From: a virus
IMG/VR virus record: IMGVR_UViG_3300036851_000281
Span: 1 to 39,280 of that record
Length of the DNA: 39,280 nucleotides
Reading direction: 5' to 3' (one strand)
Positions within the stretch are counted from its first letter, which is position 1. The number at the start of each line of letters is the position of its first letter. Below, piece after piece: positions 10,207 to 27,918 of the stretch. Position numbers and translations under genes: made by a program. Below the pieces are notes generated by a model that was given only the letters and a program-made list of their open reading frames with translations, was not told the origin of the DNA and did not search any database.

Positions 10207-10256
10207 GGAGGCTGTTAACCGCTTGGTCGTAGGTTCGAATCCTACCGCCGGAGCCA
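10207..10256 (+). other. attP core: 3' half of a tRNA-Asn gene
   Basis: On the plus strand the sequence carries an anticodon loop CTGTTAA (10212-10218, anticodon GTT = Asn), then a perfect T arm (GTAGG-TTCGAAT-CCTAC), a seven-base acceptor strand CGCCGGA, discriminator G and CCA (10254-10256). No matching 5' acceptor or D arm precedes it, and the 5' side of the anticodon stem pairs with a mismatch. So this is a 3' tRNA fragment, not a tRNA gene. Temperate phages carry such fragments to rebuild the host tRNA on integration. Predicted attB: the 3' end of a host tRNA-Asn gene. Confidence 0.85.
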
Positions 10257-10265
10257 CTCTCACGC

Positions 10266-11182: not shown

Positions 11183-11562
11183 GGCGACCACTCCCACAGC
11201 CCCAGCCGTCCTCGTGCCGGGATCAGGTCAACAAGTTCCACGGCCTCATCCAATAGCCACCCGAAGCGTCCGACTGAATAGTCGCCCAGACTCAACTCGT
11301 AAGGCGTCAGGCGTGGTGCCAGAGTTTCGATGCGTACGACGTCGAGCAGGACCGTGGAGCCGATGATGCATCCGAGCGGCAGCGTGTCGGGATCGAGTCT
11401 CAGCTCTTTCGCGAACTCACGAGCCCATGCTGGCATCGTCTTCGCTGCGTGAATCAGCAGCTGCCCACGATGATCAGTCGCCCATGTCCTGGTTTCGATT
11501 CGCTTGTCACCTCGGACCACCATCGTGGCCCACGGCTGCGTCAGGGTTAGCACCTTTGTCAT
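11179..11562 (-). CDS. ASCH domain protein (127 aa)
   Basis: The N-terminus reads VLTLTQPWATMVVRGDKRIE, then TRTWATDHRGQLLIHAAK. This is the ASCH signature: W-A-x(n)-G-x-K-x-I-E-x-R-x-W followed by G-x-L-x-I-H. ASCH is a PUA-like fold that binds RNA or modified bases, and in some enzymes acts as an amidohydrolase on modified cytidine. It is common in phages; the target is unknown. ATG at 11562 overlaps the integrase stop (ATGA). Confidence 0.8.
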   Translation of the reverse strand: MTKVLTLTQPWATMVVRGDKRIETRTWATDHRGQLLIHAAKTMPAWAREFAKELRLDPDTLPLGCIIGSTVLLDVVRIETLAPRLTPYELSLGDYSVGRFGWLLDEAVELVDLIPARGRLGLWEWSP

Positions 11563-12689
11563 CCCAGCAGCGCTCCCACCGCCGCCAGCGCCCTGACCTG
11601 ATCGCCGTTGGCGGTGTCGATGTAGTGCCCGTGGGTGGTGGTCGTGCGCCGATGCCCGAGCCAGTCGGCGATCGTGCGATCGGGCACGCCGGCCTCGAAC
11701 AGGCGCGACCCGAAGGTGGTGCGCAGATTTTTCCACGCCAGCCGTCGCACGCCCGCGCGTTGCTCGATCTCATACAGCCAATGCGTCAGGACCGCCGAGT
11801 GCAGCGGCTCCCCGCCGGGCCGGTCGGCGCGGCCAGGCCTCGTTACGAACACCGGGCCCGTCGTGATCGGCACGAACCCGACGGCTCGCACCTGGGCCTC
11901 CTGAGCCCTCAACGCATCGAGAAGAGCCAGCGCTAGCGGCAGGACGCGGCGCGAGCGGCTGCCGGTCTTCAGCTCGTCTCGGACGTACTGCCCCTCCCGG
12001 CGCGTGGGGCCGATGATGCGGCGCAGGGCGCGCCTGACGTGGAGCCTGGCGCCGTCGTAGTCGATGTCCTCCCACGCCAGCCCGAGCAGCTCGCCCTGAC
12101 GGATTCCCGTACCGATCGAGAGTCGGAGGGCCGGCTCGAGCCACTCGCCGCGCGCGGCGGTGAGCAGACGCGCGATCTCCCGCTCGCTGAAGGCCTCCGG
12201 CTCACGATCCGGCACGCGCGGTGCGTCGATGTACTCGCGACTCGCGACGTTGCGCGCGACGAGTCCCATGCGGCGAGCGTCGCTGAGCGCCTTCCGCAGC
12301 ACAGCGTGGACGTTGCGCAGGTGCTTTGGGCTCATGCGCTCTGCCAGCCCGGATAGCGCGTGCTCCACGTCGAGCGGGGTCAGGTCAGCCAAGCGGATCG
12401 GTCCCACGGTGGGCAGCAGGTGCAGCTCGATCGCCGTCGCGTAGCCGTGTCGGGTGGCGGGTCGGATGTTGCGCACGTCAGCCACCCATCCGACGAGGTA
12501 GTCGCCAGTCGTCTGGCGGCTTCTGCTTACGCCGGCGCGCCGATCGGCCTGCATCTCGGCGAGGGCCACGGCGGCCTCGCGCTGGGTGAGGCGCTTCCGC
12601 CTCTCGTAGCGGCGGGTCTCCCGCCCGCCCGTCGACAGTTGGGCGATCCACCACCGCCCGCTGCGATAGACGCTGCCCTCGCCGGGCAT
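11559..12689 (-). CDS. int: Tyrosine-family integrase (376 aa)
   Basis: Integrates phage DNA at attB and excises it with the excisionase. The start chosen is ATG at 12689 (MPGEGSVYRS), with AGGAGG 6 nt upstream; a GTG at 12704 is possible but has no such site. Residues about 1-50 are an arm-binding beta domain, 60-150 the SAM-like core-binding domain, 165-370 the catalytic domain. Catalytic residues: Arg197 (GTGIRQGEL), Lys241 (DELKTGS), Arg323 in KNLRTTF, His346 (WLGHRR), Tyr356 (HGHYI). The usual box II histidine is replaced by Lys320, a known kind of variation. It transcribes toward attP, 1.3 kb away. Confidence 0.93.
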   Translation of the reverse strand: MPGEGSVYRSGRWWIAQLSTGGRETRRYERRKRLTQREAAVALAEMQADRRAGVSRSRQTTGDYLVGWVADVRNIRPATRHGYATAIELHLLPTVGPIRLADLTPLDVEHALSGLAERMSPKHLRNVHAVLRKALSDARRMGLVARNVASREYIDAPRVPDREPEAFSEREIARLLTAARGEWLEPALRLSIGTGIRQGELLGLAWEDIDYDGARLHVRRALRRIIGPTRREGQYVRDELKTGSRSRRVLPLALALLDALRAQEAQVRAVGFVPITTGPVFVTRPGRADRPGGEPLHSAVLTHWLYEIEQRAGVRRLAWKNLRTTFGSRLFEAGVPDRTIADWLGHRRTTTTHGHYIDTANGDQVRALAAVGALLG

Positions 12690-12873
12690 CCTTCGCCTCC
12701 TCACCGTTCGACGAGTGTAGCCACTCCTGCAACGCTTCGACCGGGATCAGCCACCGCCGCCCGAGCCGGCGCGATGGCAGAGTGCCGCTGTCCAGCGCGC
12801 GGCGCACCGTAGCCTCCGAGACGCCGAGGATCGCGGCGACCTCGGCTGGGCTGTAAGCCAGGCGCTCGCTCAC
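12478..12873 (-). CDS. Excisionase-type HTH protein (131 aa)
   Basis: Residues 1-60 are a MerR-like / HTH_17 DNA-binding domain: LAYSPAEVAAILGVSEATVR, then GTLPSRRLGRRWLIPVEAL. This is the form of small excisionases and other DNA-bending factors. The frame then continues about 70 residues of basic low-complexity sequence that overlaps the integrase start by 212 nt. The overlapping part is probably a by-product of high GC, and an earlier end in ancestors is likely. GTG start at 12873 overlaps the upstream stop (GTGA). Adjacent to integrase, so a recombination directionality role fits. Confidence 0.75.
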   Translation of the reverse strand: MSERLAYSPAEVAAILGVSEATVRRALDSGTLPSRRLGRRWLIPVEALQEWLHSSNGEEAKDARRGQRLSQRAVVDRPTVDGRAGDPPLREAEAPHPARGRRGPRRDAGRSARRRKQKPPDDWRLPRRMGG

Positions 12874-13182: not shown

Positions 13183-13857
13183 TCATGCCAGCGCCGCCAT
13201 GATCCGCGCGTGCAGCGCCTCGATGCGGGGCCAGGCCTCGGGTGGGTAACCGTCGCGCAGGTAGCCGGTCCAGGGGTAGGCGTAGTCGGCGCCGTGGAGC
13301 TCGGTGACCGGCTTCAGCCTGCCGCCCACCAGCGCCATGCCATCAGGCACGTCGCGGGTGACGGTGGTGTTGGCGCCCACGAAGGCACCGATCCCGACCC
13401 TGACGCCGGCCACCACCACGCAGCCGATGGTCAGCACCGCCCCCTCATCGATGGTCGCCGGGGTCGTGGCTCGGCCAGGCGGCGGGGGCAGCCGCACGTC
13501 GGTGATGTAGCAGTCGGCATAGATGCGCGCGAAGTGACGCAGCTGGCCCTCGGTCATCTCGCAGCGGCCGTGGATGCGGACGTAGTCGCCGACCACGCCG
13601 CCGCCCTCCAGCGAGGAGCCGGTGCCGATCCGCAGGTTCGCGCCGACCTCGTTGCCGGTGCGCAGCAGGACGTGATGGCCGGTCTCCAGCCCGGGCCCGT
13701 AGCTCGAGCCGCCCTCGATGATCGAGTGGCTGCGGATGATGCTCCCCGGCCCGAGCTCCAGGTAGCCGTGGTGAGAGCCGATCAGGCAGTACGGCTCGAT
13801 CACCACCGACGGGTCGATCTTCGTGTTGGGGTGGATGATGGCGGTCCGGTGGATCAT
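13183..13857 (-). CDS. Left-handed beta-helix acyltransferase (224 aa)
   Basis: Hexapeptide-repeat (LbH) fold: imperfect [LIV]-G-x(4) turns run from residue 5 to about 180 (IIHPNTKIDPSVVIEPYCLI; GVVGDYVRIHGRCEM; TIGCVVVAGVRVGIGAFVGA; NTTVTRDVPDGMALVGG). The closing VPDGMALVGG loop is typical of O-/N-acetyltransferases of the WbbJ, VatD and sugar-acetylase group. It probably transfers an acyl group to a sugar. It forms a coupled trio with the SGNH hydrolase and glycosyltransferase upstream (4-nt and 1-nt overlaps). Confidence 0.85.
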   Translation of the reverse strand: MIHRTAIIHPNTKIDPSVVIEPYCLIGSHHGYLELGPGSIIRSHSIIEGGSSYGPGLETGHHVLLRTGNEVGANLRIGTGSSLEGGGVVGDYVRIHGRCEMTEGQLRHFARIYADCYITDVRLPPPPGRATTPATIDEGAVLTIGCVVVAGVRVGIGAFVGANTTVTRDVPDGMALVGGRLKPVTELHGADYAYPWTGYLRDGYPPEAWPRIEALHARIMAALA

Positions 13858-14402
13858 CCTCGCCTCCAGGCGTCGAGCGCGGCCTGCACCCTGTGCGCGT
13901 AGCGGCGATGACCCTCGGCGGTTGGGTGAACGCCGTCGGGCAGCAGCAGGTCGATCGAGTCCCAGGCGGCCCGCACGTCGATCAGGCGGGTCCGGGTGTC
14001 CTCAGCCACCTCGCGCAGTGCCTGGTCGTAGTGACACAGGTCGCGGCTGTGGCGCAGGTTCTTGTGCGAGGGGATCAGGGTGCACAGGAACGGCTCGGCG
14101 CCGAAGGCCCGGCAGCGGTCGACCATCTCCGTCAGGTTGGCGGCGTAGGCCCGCTCCGACACCCGCGGCAGGCCGCGGTCGGTCAGCCAGCGATTCGCGT
14201 CGTTGTGGCCGAACTGAATCACCACCGCCTCAGGCTCGTGCCGCTGCACGTCGCTCGGGAAGCGCTCGAGGCCCAGCCGGCTGGTGTCGTCCGGCACCCC
14301 GGCAGCGTGCACCTTGTAGAGCTGCAGCAGCGCCGGCCAGGCCTTCTCGCCATCGGGCAGGTACTGGCCGGCGGTGATGCTGTCACCGATGCACACGATC
14401 AT
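13854..14402 (-). CDS. SGNH/GDSL-type hydrolase (182 aa)
   Basis: All four SGNH blocks are visible: block I VCIGDSITAG (Ser8), block II glycine around residue 38, block III FGHNDANRW (Asn67 region), block V LPDGVHPTAEGH (Asp and His near 159-162). Family members are esterases, lipases or sugar O-acetylesterases, and some transfer acetyl groups. No signal peptide, so it acts in the cytoplasm or in the virion. Between a glycosyltransferase and an acyltransferase, it may edit or add sugar acyl groups. Confidence 0.88.
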   Translation of the reverse strand: MIVCIGDSITAGQYLPDGEKAWPALLQLYKVHAAGVPDDTSRLGLERFPSDVQRHEPEAVVIQFGHNDANRWLTDRGLPRVSERAYAANLTEMVDRCRAFGAEPFLCTLIPSHKNLRHSRDLCHYDQALREVAEDTRTRLIDVRAAWDSIDLLLPDGVHPTAEGHRRYAHRVQAALDAWRRG

Positions 14403-15211
14403 CAGTAGGGCACCGTCTCGTAGTCGAACACCGGCGGCGGCAGGCCTGGGACGTCGTCCTCTTGGCCGGTCTGGGCGACCACCATGACCCGGTCGTTGCA
14501 GAAGGCGCGATTAGCCAGCATGTGGCGCCGGTCGCGCAGCAGCGTCACGTGCTCGACCTCGTAGCGCGCTCGCAGCTGATGCACCGGCCGCACCGGGTAG
14601 CGCGCGGCGCCATGCTGGCGAGCGGGGCGACCGCCGAAGGGCAGCCACACCCGGCGCCCGTGCTTCATGGCGCTATACCAGTAGTGAAAGCGCTCGACCC
14701 GCAGCCCGGGCAGGGCCCGCAGGAAGTGGCAGTGCATGATCCGCTGGCCGGCCAGCTTGCTGTGCCAGTGCGAGGCCGACGACGCCTCGAGGCTGCGCAC
14801 CGGGTGGAGCGGCGTGTAGAACGGGACGCTGAGGATGTCGACGCGACGGTGCACACCTGCCAGCTCGGCACGGGCCGCCGCCCGGTCGGCGTGGATGATG
14901 TGATCGGCGTCGATCAGCGCCAGCCACTTCGAGCCGACAGCCGCCCGGCGCACCAGAAAGGACCGCTTCTCGACCTGGCCCGCCCACAGCTGCTCGGGCA
15001 CGTGGATGTCGCACTCCAGCCCGACCTCGGCCGCGACCCTGCGAATGGTCTCAGCCTGCTTGCGCGGGCTGGCCGGCCTGGCGTCGGGATAGCGGCGGTA
15101 GGCGCCGTCGACGGCCACGATGCGATCGGCGATCTCGCCCGCACCGCGCACGCACGCCTCCAGCAGCGCGGGTGGCTCGTCGTACCAGGCCAGGGCGGCG
15201 GTGATGATCAT
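14402..15211 (-). CDS. Glycosyltransferase, GT-A fold (269 aa)
   Basis: GT2-like start (IITAALAWYDEPPALLEACV, then DRIVAVDGAYRRYPD) and a DxD motif in WLALIDADHII (about residues 96-101), which binds the divalent metal and nucleotide sugar. The second half has the His/Tyr-rich acceptor region (ERFHYWYSAMKHGRR). It is cytoplasmic and has no membrane segment of its own, but a two-span membrane protein is coupled just upstream. Together with the SGNH hydrolase and LbH acyltransferase it forms a three-enzyme cassette. Donor and acceptor are unknown. Confidence 0.8.
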   Translation of the reverse strand: MIITAALAWYDEPPALLEACVRGAGEIADRIVAVDGAYRRYPDARPASPRKQAETIRRVAAEVGLECDIHVPEQLWAGQVEKRSFLVRRAAVGSKWLALIDADHIIHADRAAARAELAGVHRRVDILSVPFYTPLHPVRSLEASSASHWHSKLAGQRIMHCHFLRALPGLRVERFHYWYSAMKHGRRVWLPFGGRPARQHGAARYPVRPVHQLRARYEVEHVTLLRDRRHMLANRAFCNDRVMVVAQTGQEDDVPGLPPPVFDYETVPY

Positions 15212-22529: not shown

Positions 22530-22543
22530 CGTGGTCCTTGCTG

Positions 22544-22969
22544 GTGACAGAACGCACCACTTTCTCCGCGCTGCTGCAAGAGGTCATGGCATCGAAGGGG
22601 GCGACGGAATGGTCGAAGGTGCTCGACGTCGACCGCACCACCGTGCACAAGTGGTGGTCGGGCGACGCCTTCCCGCGCGGCCGTCAGCTCGAGGCAATCG
22701 CGCGCGAGACCGGGCGCCAGCTGCGATTCGTGGCGGATGACGAAGAAGCCGCCCCGCCCAAATGGGCGGAGCGGCTGGCGGATGAGACCGCGTCGAAGAT
22801 TATCGCGGCGCTGGCACCGGACGATCTGATGAAGGCTGCGGCGCTGCTGATCGCACGGCTCGAAGCGCTGCCGCCGCCTCACGGCGATTCGTCTCCCGAC
22901 TCTGGCGCAGCACCAGATCCGGGCGCCTCAGAGCGACCAGCGCCAGGAGACGAGTCACCTCGTGGCTGA
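22544..22969 (+). CDS. XRE/Cro-CI-like repressor (141 aa)
   Basis: Helix-turn-helix domain at about residues 5-60: FSALLQEVMASKGATEWSKV, then LDVDRTTVHKWWSGDAFPRG. A linker and a C-terminal helix (ETASKIIAALAPDDLMKAAA) follow, then a Pro/Ser-rich tail. No protease-like CI domain is present. Start taken as GTG at 22544, because the TTG at 22511 lies within the promoter-like sequence. One of few plus-strand genes, and divergent from the early unit, so it is the likely lysogeny repressor. Confidence 0.75.
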   Translation: MTERTTFSALLQEVMASKGATEWSKVLDVDRTTVHKWWSGDAFPRGRQLEAIARETGRQLRFVADDEEAAPPKWAERLADETASKIIAALAPDDLMKAAALLIARLEALPPPHGDSSPDSGAAPDPGASERPAPGDESPRG

Positions 22970-23148
22970 AGCGGATGGCCTCGTCGATCACGGGCGTCCC
23001 TCCCTAGAACATCTGCCCGTCATTCGCGCCACCGGGCAGCTGTGGCGAGGCACTCAACTATATTGCAACCGCGACGTGACAACGACTAGACCCACTGCGG
23101 TGGGTTGTGGTGCGATGACGCACCCGTAAGTACGTGGGGAGGAACAGG
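22970..23148 (+). other. Non-coding gap before the conversion genes
   Basis: No gene is supported here. It holds a small hairpin CCCAC-TGCG-GTGGG (23091-23104) without a U-tract, and an A/T-richer stretch (23055-23065, CAACTATATTG) with a loose TTGCAA/TAGACC promoter match. It probably separates the repressor from the two membrane genes and may carry their own promoter. Confidence 0.4.
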
Positions 23149-23472
23149 GTGAAGCTCTGGCGCCAACTGAGTGGGTCGCAGCGGATCCTGATCGTCCTAG
23201 TCGCGGTCATCGCCGTGGTGATCGTGGTCAACGCTCTTTCGAAGCCGACGGCGGACAGCGGCTCGGCGAGCGACTATGTTGACCGCTATGGCGGCTCGGA
23301 CACTGTCTACGCTCAGATCGCGGCTGACACCGACTGCGACAGCCTGCAGGAGACCTTCGACCGCGCGGCCGCCAACAACGACACGGCCGCGGCGGGAAGC
23401 GCCGAGGCTCGTTGGACGACTGGCTACATGACCGCGGCCGACGAGCGCATGCGGGCGATCGGCTGCTATTGA
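23149..23472 (+). CDS. Small exported/membrane-anchored protein (107 aa)
   Basis: The GTG at 23149 follows GGGAGGAAC. One N-terminal membrane segment (ILIVLVAVIAVVIVVNAL) is followed by an extracytoplasmic domain of about 75 residues with two cysteines (DTDCDSLQETFDRAAANND; ending DERMRAIGCY) that may form a disulphide. Similar small C-x(n)-GCY proteins are known to me from high-GC bacterial chromosomes, so this may be host-derived. Coupled to the glycosyltransferase downstream by a TTGA overlap. Confidence 0.65.
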   Translation: MKLWRQLSGSQRILIVLVAVIAVVIVVNALSKPTADSGSASDYVDRYGGSDTVYAQIAADTDCDSLQETFDRAAANNDTAAAGSAEARWTTGYMTAADERMRAIGCY

Positions 23473-24374
23473 CCGTGGAGCGCACGCTGCCCGCGCTGAC
23501 AACCATCGACCGGCTGCTCGTGCATCGCATCCTGGCCGGCGCGTTCATCGCATTCGGGCTGGTGATGGTGACGCAGCATGGCCTCGCGACAGCCGTTGTG
23601 GGCTTCGGGCGCGATGCGATCGGTTACTACGACGCCGGCGTGCACATCCGGACCGACCAACCGCTCTACTTCGACGACGGGGCGCCATTCGGCTCCGAGG
23701 TCTTCCTATTCGCGCCGTGGTTCGCCTGGGCCTGGGTGCCGCTGAGCTTCCTGCCGCGCGACCTGGTCCTGGCGGGCTGGGTGCTGGGCATGTGTGCCGC
23801 GACCGTCTGGGCGGTGGCGCCCTTCTTCCGGCTCGGGCTGGCGGGCATCGCTCTGGGCTCGCTGCTCGGCTACACCCTTTCCCAGGGTGCCTTCTGGGGC
23901 AACGTCATGCCGCTGCTGGTCGGCGTCCTGATCCATTCGCACGGCCGCCGCTCGTTCCCCGTCTGGGTCGGTCTGGCGGCCTCGTTGAAGATCCTGCCGA
24001 TCCTGTATGTCTGGCCGGACTTGGCCGCGAGACGCTGGCGCCGAGTGGCGGTCGCCATCGGCATCGCGGCTGCGCTCTGGGCGCCCGCGCTGCTGTATGG
24101 CCTCTCTGACTACCCGACCGGGTTCACACCGACCATGTCGCTGCTGTGGCTGTCAGGCTGGGTGTGGGCCGGGGTGGCTGCGCTGGCGGTGATCGCCATG
24201 ATCGCAGCCAGCCGGACGCGCTATCGCTGGCTGGCGACGACGCTGGCCATTCTGGCCCTCTACCCGCGCCTGCACTTCCACTACATCGGCCTGCTGGGGG
24301 TGGGCCTACGCCGGAATCCGCATGATGAGGAGCGTTGTGAAGCCCGCCTGCACGACGTGGGTGCCGTTCGTTGA
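23469..24374 (+). CDS. GT87-like (DUF2029) membrane glycosyltransferase (301 aa)
   Basis: Multi-span GT-C protein. The catalytic N-terminal loop reads DAIGYYDAGVHIRTDQPLYF, then FLFAPWFAWAWVPLSFLP; later hallmarks are SQGAFWGNVMPLLVG and LAASLKILPILYVWPDLAAR. GT87 enzymes move sugars, typically mannose, from a polyprenyl-phosphate carrier onto lipid or wall glycans. Start TTG at 23469 overlaps the upstream stop; GTG at 23475 is the alternative. It is shorter than usual (relatives about 400 aa), and its last 23 codons run antisense into the tail gene. Likely expressed in lysogens to alter the host surface. Confidence 0.78.
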   Translation: MTVERTLPALTTIDRLLVHRILAGAFIAFGLVMVTQHGLATAVVGFGRDAIGYYDAGVHIRTDQPLYFDDGAPFGSEVFLFAPWFAWAWVPLSFLPRDLVLAGWVLGMCAATVWAVAPFFRLGLAGIALGSLLGYTLSQGAFWGNVMPLLVGVLIHSHGRRSFPVWVGLAASLKILPILYVWPDLAARRWRRVAVAIGIAAALWAPALLYGLSDYPTGFTPTMSLLWLSGWVWAGVAALAVIAMIAASRTRYRWLATTLAILALYPRLHFHYIGLLGVGLRRNPHDEERCEARLHDVGAVR

Positions 24375-24842
24375 CGTCCTGGCGCCCACCAGCTTGACGA
24401 TGTACTCCTCACTCGCATTCAGAGCATCTCGGCTGTGGGCATACACGCTCCACCGACCGGCGCTGGCGCATTTGACGTGAGCCTCAGCGGCCATGGTGGC
24501 GTCGATGTAGGTGCGCAGCTGGCAAACGGCCGTCCCGCCAGTCGTGACGTCAACGTCCCACATCGCCCAGGTCAGCAGGATCTCGTTCGTGTCAGGCGTG
24601 AAGGTGATCGTCGCGCCCGCGACATCGGCCTCAGCAACCGCGAGGGTGAGGTTAGCGGAGGCGGCCACCTCAGCCGTGACATATGAGGCGACTGACGCCG
24701 ACTCGGCCACATCATCCCAGCTCGACCCGTTGTCGCGCTGCATCTTCACCAGCGTCGTGTCGAAGAAGAGGCGCCCCGCGATCGAAGCGGCTGGTCGGTT
24801 GGCAGTAATGTCGCGCAGGACGACCGATGCCAGGGTGCTCAT
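24306..24842 (-). CDS. Tail fibre/minor tail protein (178 aa)
   Basis: The N-terminus has the tail-fibre phrase RPAASIAGRLFFDTTLVKMQ, then RDNGSSWDDV, typical of fibre segments (GRLFxxTDTxxLxRDNGxxWxxV). The remaining 130 residues are a beta-rich domain (ATITFTPDTNEILLTWAMWD). It ends the late operon, 69 bp inside the convergent glycosyltransferase gene. 4-nt overlap with the zinc protein upstream. Confidence 0.75.
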   Translation of the reverse strand: MSTLASVVLRDITANRPAASIAGRLFFDTTLVKMQRDNGSSWDDVAESASVASYVTAEVAASANLTLAVAEADVAGATITFTPDTNEILLTWAMWDVDVTTGGTAVCQLRTYIDATMAAEAHVKCASAGRWSVYAHSRDALNASEEYIVKLVGARTSTNGTHVVQAGFTTLLIMRIPA

Positions 24843-25036
24843 GATGGCCGCCTACCGGGAGGGAGCAGCTGCACGTCGGTCAGCCGCGCGACCGTGGCCT
24901 TACGTTTGGCTGGCTCGTAAGCCTGGCACTTGCACAGGTGAGCCTTCTTCCCGGCGACTATCACGGCGTTGCACGGATCGTGGCGGTTGAGCGGGTGGCC
25001 ACAGCCCTTTCGTTCACACGGGAATAGATCAGCCAT
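24839..25036 (-). CDS. Small Cys/His protein in the tail module (65 aa)
   Basis: Metal-binding pattern: CERKGCGHPLNRHDPC, then HLCKCQAYEP. Such small knuckles occur between fibre genes in actinophages. It overlaps both neighbours (one base and 4 nt). It may be a tail-assembly helper. Confidence 0.65.
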   Translation of the reverse strand: MADLFPCERKGCGHPLNRHDPCNAVIVAGKKAHLCKCQAYEPAKRKATVARLTDVQLLPPGRRPS

Positions 25037-27918
25037 CAGTTGGGTACTCCTACGACTACGACGATGTCGCCTCCGGCGAAGATGAAGTTGCTGGCCCCGT
25101 CGGTCAGGGGCTCGTCATGGACGGTTGTGCTGCCCATGGCCGCGCCGAGCTCCTGCAGCTGGGCCTCGACGTCGGTGCCGGTGAAGTAGCCGCCGGCGTC
25201 GGCAGCCGAGATGGCCGAGGCGTCGTGCGCGTCAGTGGCGTCGTCGGTGTGCTGGTCAAGGACGAGCAGGCCATTGAGCGCCTCGACCGCCGCCAGGACA
25301 TCGTTGGCGGTGATCCCGCGCGCACCATTCTCGAAGAGGTCGCGCGTGATCTGAGCCTCGTCGGCCGTCCCGAACTCGGCCCGCGGCACGACCCCGATGA
25401 CCTGCAGCGGGGCCTGAGCGATGACATAGGCGAAGTCGGTCACGTCGTCGTAGTCGGGCGTGCCGTAGTCGATGCCGCCGACGGTGATGTTGGGGTTGAT
25501 CGCCAGAATGGCCGCGCCCTCGGCGCCGCTGGCATTCATGGCGACCCGGCTGACTATGCCGTTGTCGACCACGAACTGCGCCAGCTCCTCCTGGGTGGCG
25601 ACGCTGGCGATCTTGTTGTCGAACTGATAGGTGACGTCGTAGGGCTTCAGCGCCTCAACGATCTCATCGAGGGTCGGCACGTCGAGGGTGGTGCCGTGGC
25701 GGCCGGCGTCGTAGCCATCGCCGCCGTCGATATGCCCGGCCTTGATCGTGGCCAGGGTCGCCGCTGACACGTCGCCGGTCAGGTTGGTCGTCCGGTTTAG
25801 CGTCGCGTCGTGAAGGATGACCCACACGCCATCGGACGTCTTGCGCAGGTCGAGGTCGACGCGATGCGCGCCGCGCAGGATCGCCTGGCGGTAGCCCTCG
25901 AGCGTGCCCTCCGGGTAGCCGTCGGTCGGATTCATGTCGCCGGAGTGGGCGACGATCAGGAAGGGATGATGCGTTTCGATGTCTGACAGCCGAACGGTGC
26001 CGCTCGTCGGGCCGGCCTCGGTGCCCCACTCAACCCCGCCTTGACCATCCGGGTGGAGGACGAGCGACGTATCGCTCTCGTTGGTCTTCAGCGTCTCGAT
26101 GATGTGCAGGTGATCGCCGCGTGTGGCGCATGGATCCGTGCCGGTCAGAGAGTTGGCCCACAACTCGACCTCGCCGATATCCCAATCTGAGGTCGGATCT
26201 GTTGCGCCAGCCGTCGCCCGGAAGAGCCAGTAGCGGTAGGTGTGCTGGGTGCCGAATCCGATCTCGCCCGTGTCGCTGCTGACACCCAGCCCGCTGAAGC
26301 TGGTGAGCAGCGTCCAGCCGTTGGCGGCAGGGTCGGCGCTGATCTTGCCGGCTGGCAGCCAGGCCCAGGCCGCATCGTCGTTCGAGCCGTAGATACTGAC
26401 CGCTGAGGCCCAATCAACGGGGTCACTGTGGGCGAGGTAGCGATAGGCGTCGACGGTCTCCGCCCCGGCGGTGTCAGCGGCCAAGTAGTCCTCGGCCACG
26501 GCACCAGAGGCGACGTGGGAAAAGGCGATGGCCGTACCATCGACCGCATTCTCGCGCGGGAAAGATGCGTTTTCGCTGGCTGACTTCAGGTATGAGCCGG
26601 ACAGCCCGAGCAGGACGTTTCGTCGTGGTCTACACAGCCTGAACTGCGAACCCGCCGCTCCCTGTGCCGCCTGGGTGGGGGACCAGTTGAAGGTCGACCC
26701 GATCCCGACGATGACGACATAATCGCCGTTGGCGTCCCTGCCCGTCTTCAGGCGCCAGGTGATCGAGGCGACCGGCGTCGCCTCTTCGTTGGAGTCGTAG
26801 GTTCCCGTGCCGGTGTGATGGGTGATCGTGTCGCCCAGCCAGAAGTGGCCGTCGACGATATCTGGCGCCGGCTCATAGATGCCCACCGTCGGGTCGTCCC
26901 CGTGGTCGTGCAGCGGGATCTCCCAGGCATCGGTCTGGCGCTTGCGGCGCTCGATGTGGGCCAGTCCGGCGGCGTCGAGCTGGGTCGGGTCCGAGGCCTC
27001 CGGCACGGCCAGGAAACCCCAGCGCACGACCTCGCCGGCCGACCAGTCCGGATCCACCACTGTGCGATAGCTGAACTCGGCGCCCCCGACCAGGAGGTGC
27101 GAGACGTAGACCGAGCCGCGCACGTTGCGCGCGATCGCCTTGGCCGCGTTGACGCCCTTCTCGAGGCGCACGGTGCCGGCGCCGAAGGCGCCTGAGCGGT
27201 CGGTGCCGTGGGTCAGATAGGCGTTCAGCTTGAAGAGGTAGGTGAGCTCCCAGACGACCCCGCCCAGCTGATCCATGCGGATCAGCAGGGTCAGGCCGTC
27301 ATCGCCCACGTCGGCACCCTGGGCCTCGCCGTCGAGGAATGGCACCGCGGCCCCGTTGCTGTCCAGGTCGTAATCGAACGAGCTGTGGTCGACCTCGTCG
27401 ATGCCGCTCGGGCTGTTGAGCAGCATCTCGACGACCGCCCGCTTGTACATCGGGATCGGGTGCGCGTTCGAGGCGCCGGCGAAGTTGCCCTGGCTGTCGA
27501 GGTCCCAATAGCCGTCGATCGGATTCTTACCTCCGAGGAGGTTCGAATCGTTGTCCATCATGCCGCGCTCGAGATAGGCGAGCTGGCTGCGCCCGACCCA
27601 CTCCATCCACTCGTCGCCGGGCCCCTCAGCAGCTGAGAGGTCGATGGGCGCGCCGTCGAGGAACGCGCCACCCACCACGCCGGCGTCGGTGTGGACCAGG
27701 AGATAGCGGTCCTGTTCGAGCAGCGCCGCCTGAGTGAGGTGGCGGTTGATCTTGCCTTTGAACTTGCCCGTTCCGTGCTCGTCGACCCTGTACTCGAGCT
27801 CGGTCCACTCATTGACCGTGCCCAGCGACTTCGAGGCGATGTGCGCCTCCTCGGTGGGCAGGTCGTTCGGGGCATAGACGGTCGTGTAGAGACGCGCCGT
27901 CACGAGCTCAGATCCCAC
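25036..27918 (-). CDS. Large baseplate/receptor protein with GDPD-like domain (960 aa)
   Basis: Residues about 1-380 match Siphovirus ReqiPepy6 Gp37-like tail proteins (LYTTVYAPNDLPTEEAHIAS; GTGKFKGKINRHL; WEIPLHDHGD). Residues about 430-590 look like an F5/8-type discoidin domain (ENASFPRENAVDG; VSIYGSNDDAAW; YRYWLFRA; GEVELWANSL). Residues about 650-870 form a glycerophosphodiester phosphodiesterase-like barrel: IVAHSGDMN, GYPEGTLEGYRQAILRGAHR, VDLDLRKTSDG, ILHDATLNRTTN. The AHRG arginine is Ser here; both catalytic His remain. The C-terminal 60 residues are a fibre-like tail. Probably binds and hydrolyses a glycerophosphate-containing surface polymer such as teichoic acid. Confidence 0.8.
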   Translation of the reverse strand: MGSELVTARLYTTVYAPNDLPTEEAHIASKSLGTVNEWTELEYRVDEHGTGKFKGKINRHLTQAALLEQDRYLLVHTDAGVVGGAFLDGAPIDLSAAEGPGDEWMEWVGRSQLAYLERGMMDNDSNLLGGKNPIDGYWDLDSQGNFAGASNAHPIPMYKRAVVEMLLNSPSGIDEVDHSSFDYDLDSNGAAVPFLDGEAQGADVGDDGLTLLIRMDQLGGVVWELTYLFKLNAYLTHGTDRSGAFGAGTVRLEKGVNAAKAIARNVRGSVYVSHLLVGGAEFSYRTVVDPDWSAGEVVRWGFLAVPEASDPTQLDAAGLAHIERRKRQTDAWEIPLHDHGDDPTVGIYEPAPDIVDGHFWLGDTITHHTGTGTYDSNEEATPVASITWRLKTGRDANGDYVVIVGIGSTFNWSPTQAAQGAAGSQFRLCRPRRNVLLGLSGSYLKSASENASFPRENAVDGTAIAFSHVASGAVAEDYLAADTAGAETVDAYRYLAHSDPVDWASAVSIYGSNDDAAWAWLPAGKISADPAANGWTLLTSFSGLGVSSDTGEIGFGTQHTYRYWLFRATAGATDPTSDWDIGEVELWANSLTGTDPCATRGDHLHIIETLKTNESDTSLVLHPDGQGGVEWGTEAGPTSGTVRLSDIETHHPFLIVAHSGDMNPTDGYPEGTLEGYRQAILRGAHRVDLDLRKTSDGVWVILHDATLNRTTNLTGDVSAATLATIKAGHIDGGDGYDAGRHGTTLDVPTLDEIVEALKPYDVTYQFDNKIASVATQEELAQFVVDNGIVSRVAMNASGAEGAAILAINPNITVGGIDYGTPDYDDVTDFAYVIAQAPLQVIGVVPRAEFGTADEAQITRDLFENGARGITANDVLAAVEALNGLLVLDQHTDDATDAHDASAISAADAGGYFTGTDVEAQLQELGAAMGSTTVHDEPLTDGASNFIFAGGDIVVVVGVPN

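Follow-up and report, generated by a model that had tools for sequence, protein, structure and literature searches.

The 39,280-base virus record analysed here, referred to as the window, carries two genes in a slot between its repressor-like gene and its tail region, and the second of these encodes a GT87-like glycosyltransferase of the GT-C fold. We consider it fairly probable that this is a lysogenic-conversion slot, in which a complete, compact Chloroflexota GT-C enzyme alters a surface glycan and thereby blocks related phages. The evidence comes from the layout of the slot, from comparison of the enzyme with its cellular relatives and with PimE, and from a related phage (L023; record G002, 34,132 bases) in which the same slot holds a different GT-C.

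Downstream of the repressor-like gene, between minus-strand gene blocks, lie two adjacent genes on the plus strand (Table 1), as the first-pass annotation had stated. That annotation called both products membrane proteins, and the pair is indeed present, but only the second is multi-spanning. The GT-C gene opens with a GTG 2 nt past the stop of the small transmembrane (TM) protein gene, and GTG 23149 and GTG 23475 are likely the starts of the two slot genes. The leader in front of them is likely a divergent control region and carries Shine-Dalgarno-like sites in both directions, GGGAGGG before the minus-strand GTG at 22991 and GGGGAGG six bases upstream of the plus-strand GTG at 23149, along with the inverted repeat GGTGCG-ATGA-CGCACC at 23109-23124. 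A promoter scan of the slot gave nothing above threshold and a terminator scan nothing of note, and PADLOC and NCBIfam searches returned no useful match.

Table 1. Coordinates of the slot, the attachment site and other features of the window.
Feature	Position	Strand	Observations
attP core	10210..10257	+	48 nt; 3' half of tRNA-Asn(GTT); adjoins integrase
Tyrosine integrase	11559..12704	-	Pfam Phage_integrase E 2.3e-17; PHROG integrase
Sugar-related cassette	13183-15211	-	Three consecutive genes close to integrase: glycosyltransferase (phrog_7009), GDSL esterase, hexapeptide acyltransferase
phrog_7009 glycosyltransferase	14402-15211	-	55% identical in G002
Repressor-like gene	22541..22969	+	PHROG transcriptional repressor matches; exact start uncertain
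Antisense ORF	22800-22991	-	Overlaps repressor 3' end; ribosome-binding site upstream in window and L023
Leader	22992..23148	.	Conserved; part of the 75.5% L023 DNA match
Small single-TM protein gene	23149..23472	+	107 aa; two Cys in the extracytoplasmic part
Compact GT87-like GT-C glycosyltransferase gene	23475..24374	+	299 aa
Convergent overlap	24306..24374	.	69 bp, from ORF coordinates
Tail-region gene, right bound of slot	24306..24842	-	178 aa

The stretch had been described as plus-strand. This holds for the two slot genes, but it is probably not purely so, given the antisense ORF over the 3' end of the repressor-like gene. The protein of this ORF is better conserved between the window and L023 than the repressor tail, and the third codon positions of the ORF carry an excess of the substitutions between the two (15/57 versus 13/110, p 0.03). 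With one sequence pair as a thin basis, the ORF may be a real gene. On the right side, the GT-C gene runs into the convergent tail-region gene. The antisense overlap is as first described except in its count: it comprises the last 22 codons of the GT-C gene and its stop, rather than 23 codons, lies opposite the 3' end of the tail-region gene and encodes only the variable charged tail of the enzyme. The tblastn match of the window enzyme stops at residue 278 (base 24308), in agreement with the island boundary that had been placed near 24305. PHROG matches of the tail-region gene are weak and for the most part hit families without an assigned function; the gene adjoins a tail protein gene (25036-27918, minus strand). 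In the product of the latter, Pfam recognises a glycerophosphodiester phosphodiesterase (GDPD) domain (E 6.8e-18), and the L023 relative of this protein matches the N-terminal half only.

The window enzyme matches the Pfam GT87 family (PF09594) at 22.3 bits (E 1.2e-4, profile positions 1-156 of 237). As this misses the gathering cut-off of 25 bits we refer to the enzyme as GT87-like; close cellular relatives exceed the cut-off, with 31-35 bits. Since the match is partial and sub-threshold, the enzyme looks short against canonical GT87 proteins. It is in fact about 100 aa shorter than canonical GT87/PimE enzymes (about 400 aa), as the initial description had it, but is no shorter than the members of its own clade: Chloroflexota relatives in this clade have about 275-335 aa and the same end point. 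The distance from the catalytic Asp to the C-terminus is 253 residues in the window enzyme and has a median of 252 in the relatives (range 234-288, n=28). When 301 Chloroflexota genomes were searched with a profile, genes of this kind turned up in arrays in G001, G042, G229, G023, G101 and others. Most of the array proteins stop 0-26 residues past the domain, with one at 48 and one, partially aligned, at 86; longer Chloroflexota GT87-like proteins have about 25-210 additional residues past it. Some array matches from this search run across a stop codon. Several short GT87-like genes also form arrays on the Chloroflexota contigs L056 (6657-16212), L057 (7590-15712) and L058 (7208-12613). Scanning 84,980 species for a peptide pattern yielded a single relative, L002, a Chloroflexota MAG contig with two adjacent genes encoding about 281 and, depending on the choice of start, 289-303 aa. 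The array proteins of L002, L056 and L057 belong to the same clade as the window enzyme and agree with it in length, in the invariant residues and in where the C-terminus lies, at about 30-39% identity; unlike the window gene, their genes lie on chromosomal contigs with several copies close together. Peptide-pattern searches of viral contigs found no relatives of the window GT-C and, for the L023 GT-C, only L023 itself, and phage and plasmid collections held no match to the window GT-C.

AlphaFold prediction on 29 sequences gave a confident GT-C fold (pLDDT 88.8, pTM 0.85). The top PDB matches of this predicted fold in Foldseek were PimE and GPI mannosyltransferase 1. PimE is a mycobacterial GT87 polyprenyl-phosphate-mannose-dependent mannosyltransferase (PDB 9dm5), and VIA-align superimposed it with a Z of 16.6 and an rmsd of 4.7 over 264 residues (PimE 21-332) at 18% identity; the Z values for ALG3 and ALG6 were 11.6 and 10.1. 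The alignment stops at PimE residue 332, and nothing in the window enzyme corresponds to the last helices of PimE. The family sequence profile alone also reaches PimE (E 6e-12), and this match and the predicted fold clearly support the original GT87-like assignment, for which the Pfam match is weak. In a viral structure library the best match was an archaeal virus membrane protein (E 7e-3).

Asp47, Tyr51 and Lys172 of the window enzyme are invariant in the 29 sequences and align to PimE Asp58, Tyr62 and Lys195, which are essential for PimE (PMC12041525). The enzyme thus has the features that define the GT-C superfamily (GT-CA core), namely the multi-helix fold, the first-loop catalytic Asp (Asp47), the Lys for the donor phosphate (Lys172) and the Tyr that holds the Asp (Tyr51). 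At the position of PimE Tyr92, where an Ala mutant is dead, the window enzyme has Phe79, and all 28 other sequences have Tyr. Asn143 occupies the position of PimE Gln163. PimE Trp319 and His322 fall beyond the aligned stretch and have no clear counterpart. Many relatives contain a Pro-Arg pair (264-265) near the C-terminal end, which may take over phosphate binding.

The first-pass annotation suggested that a host GT87 gene had been captured and trimmed by recombination, which would leave a non-functional or altered remnant that lacks its C-terminal helices. This reading would account for the deficit of about 100 aa relative to canonical GT87 and for the unusual Phe79, and homology does end near 24308, at the start of the tail-gene overlap. 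Against it, the same length and ending are found in same-clade cellular relatives, the enzyme retains its catalytic residues and a full GT-C core, and its gene has an uninterrupted reading frame without signs of decay; we regard the trimmed-gene reading as highly unlikely. Truncation of the gene itself was ruled out by length, because the same-clade cellular relatives share the end point of the window enzyme and lack additional C-terminal helices; full-length relatives with this end point are what the annotation itself had named as refuting evidence. The window enzyme is apparently a complete compact GT-C, of which only the last ~20 codons could be phage DNA gained at capture.

L023 is related to the window phage across the tail protein (80% identity), the integrase (54%) and the repressor-like gene product (54% over 108 aa). 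At the DNA level, L023 matches window positions 22739-23133 at 75.5%, and the match stops just before the cargo. Its slot has the same order, with repressor, leader, a 35-aa TM peptide, a 310-aa GT-C and the convergent tail-region gene, which the GT-C gene overlaps by 25 bp at the same place. A tree built from 68 sequences places the window enzyme in a clade of 26 rows (100/99) and that of L023 in a separate 8-row Chloroflexota clade (100/100); the L023 enzyme is without the Pro-Arg motif. Because the two enzymes fall in different clades, the tree is most simply explained by at least two independent fillings of the slot from different Chloroflexota lineages. A search of viral contigs with the leader DNA pattern matched only the contig of L023, and no GT-C was found in a further 12 virus records that are related or share the slot (L068, L069 and ten portal-related records), many of which are fragmentary.

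The presence of a different-clade GT-C in the same slot of a related phage adds weight to the idea of lysogenic conversion. Both the slot position and the refilling fit a moron of the lysogenic-conversion type. What stands of the conversion island first described is thus a cargo slot in a temperate phage with a GT-C that has cellular relatives; the trimmed gene does not. In the mechanism we propose, the leader would drive the small membrane protein and the GT-C as one unit from the prophage. Outside-facing GT-C enzymes of the PimE type use polyprenyl-phosphate sugars, and the window enzyme, placed in the cytoplasmic membrane, would take a sugar from a host-made polyprenyl-phosphate carrier at the outer face. 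Asp47 would act as the base, Tyr51 would hold Asp47 and Lys172 would bind the donor phosphate. The sugar would be moved onto a surface glycan or glycolipid of the host, and the altered glycan would prevent adsorption of related phages by changing their receptor. We infer the donor type and the acceptor, and likewise that the gene is expressed in the lysogen and excludes superinfecting phages. Weighing against this reading are Phe79, the lack of clear counterparts to PimE Trp319 and His322, the failure to find a GtrA-type flippase in the record, the empty promoter scan and the 12 virus records in which no GT-C was found.

A comparable arrangement is found in P22-like phages: GtrABC of P22 alters the O-antigen receptor (PMC11436027). 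GtrC types, too, are exchanged at fixed loci (PMC3688519). There as here, a temperate phage carries, at a fixed position, a membrane sugar transferase of variable type, and by analogy a similar effect on the receptor may be proposed for the window slot. The window slot differs in consisting of a single GT-C and a small TM protein. A GtrA-type flippase, a hallmark of Gtr serotype conversion, was not found in the window record (no PF04138 match; control genomes were positive), and the donor would therefore come from the host. The host and its glycan are also unlike those of the enterobacteria in which GtrABC acts. Near the integrase, the window carries a second sugar cassette (Table 1), which fits a glycan-modifying phage. 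Literature that pairs 'GT87' with 'phage' contained nothing judged relevant by title and abstract.

The same fold and residues would also serve a GT-C that acts in the lytic cycle or for another purpose, such as glycosylation of a virion or wall component or a change of the envelope that makes lysogens fitter, rather than phage exclusion. The second sugar cassette, whose glycosyltransferase is found in G002 as well, can be read in this way too. However, the position beside the repressor, on the strand opposite to the structural and replication genes, fits expression from the prophage better, and we hold such a role to be rather unlikely while keeping it in view. A different view is that exclusion is in truth due to the small TM protein, with the GT-C gene as incidental or neutral cargo. 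Relatives of the small protein (42-43% identity) are present in the phages L068 and L069, where they follow a repressor-like gene, directly so in L068, and where no GT-C was found, and the 35-aa TM peptide of L023 sits at the same place; phage collections gave no match to the small protein. A neutral cargo would not predict that two related phages independently gained GT-Cs of different clades, and we judge this explanation to be very improbable.

Phage receptor conversion by sugar transferases is known mainly from enterobacteria and Pseudomonas, and to our knowledge Chloroflexota phages are almost unstudied. Receptor conversion by lysogeny would, if our preferred reading is true, extend to the phages of Chloroflexota. 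The window enzyme represents a sugar transferase reduced to its catalytic core, with cellular relatives of equal size. We tentatively propose that the chromosomal GT-C paralogue arrays of Chloroflexota form a pool of surface-glycan transferases from which temperate phages would repeatedly, and each time independently, fill one repressor-adjacent slot, resulting in single-gene, flippase-free receptor conversion; we give this proposal somewhat less than even weight.

The window phage is temperate, with a tyrosine integrase next to its attP core, and the 48-nt core is identical in G002. Chloroflexota genomes carry the core sequence at the 3' end of their tRNA-Asn gene. In a search confined to Chloroflexota, the exact core occurred in 11 of 400 genomes, 10 of which are among the 21 that encode relatives of either enzyme, these related genomes not being independent. 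Since the intact core occurs in Chloroflexota genomes that carry these enzymes, the host probably belongs to this phylum; tRNA sequences are conserved, and the tRNA-Asn match supports this assignment and does not prove it. A search for the host by tRNA-Thr gave no full-length match, and portal homologues in Chloroflexota were found in two genomes only, at 34-40% identity. The tRNA-Asn site provides a testable link between phage and host. In one Chloroflexota genome (G023, contig C4), two tRNA-Asn 3' halves lie 5.8 kb apart at 978407 and 984228, one exact and one with 1 mismatch; the pair could flank a small integrated element or represent two tRNA genes.
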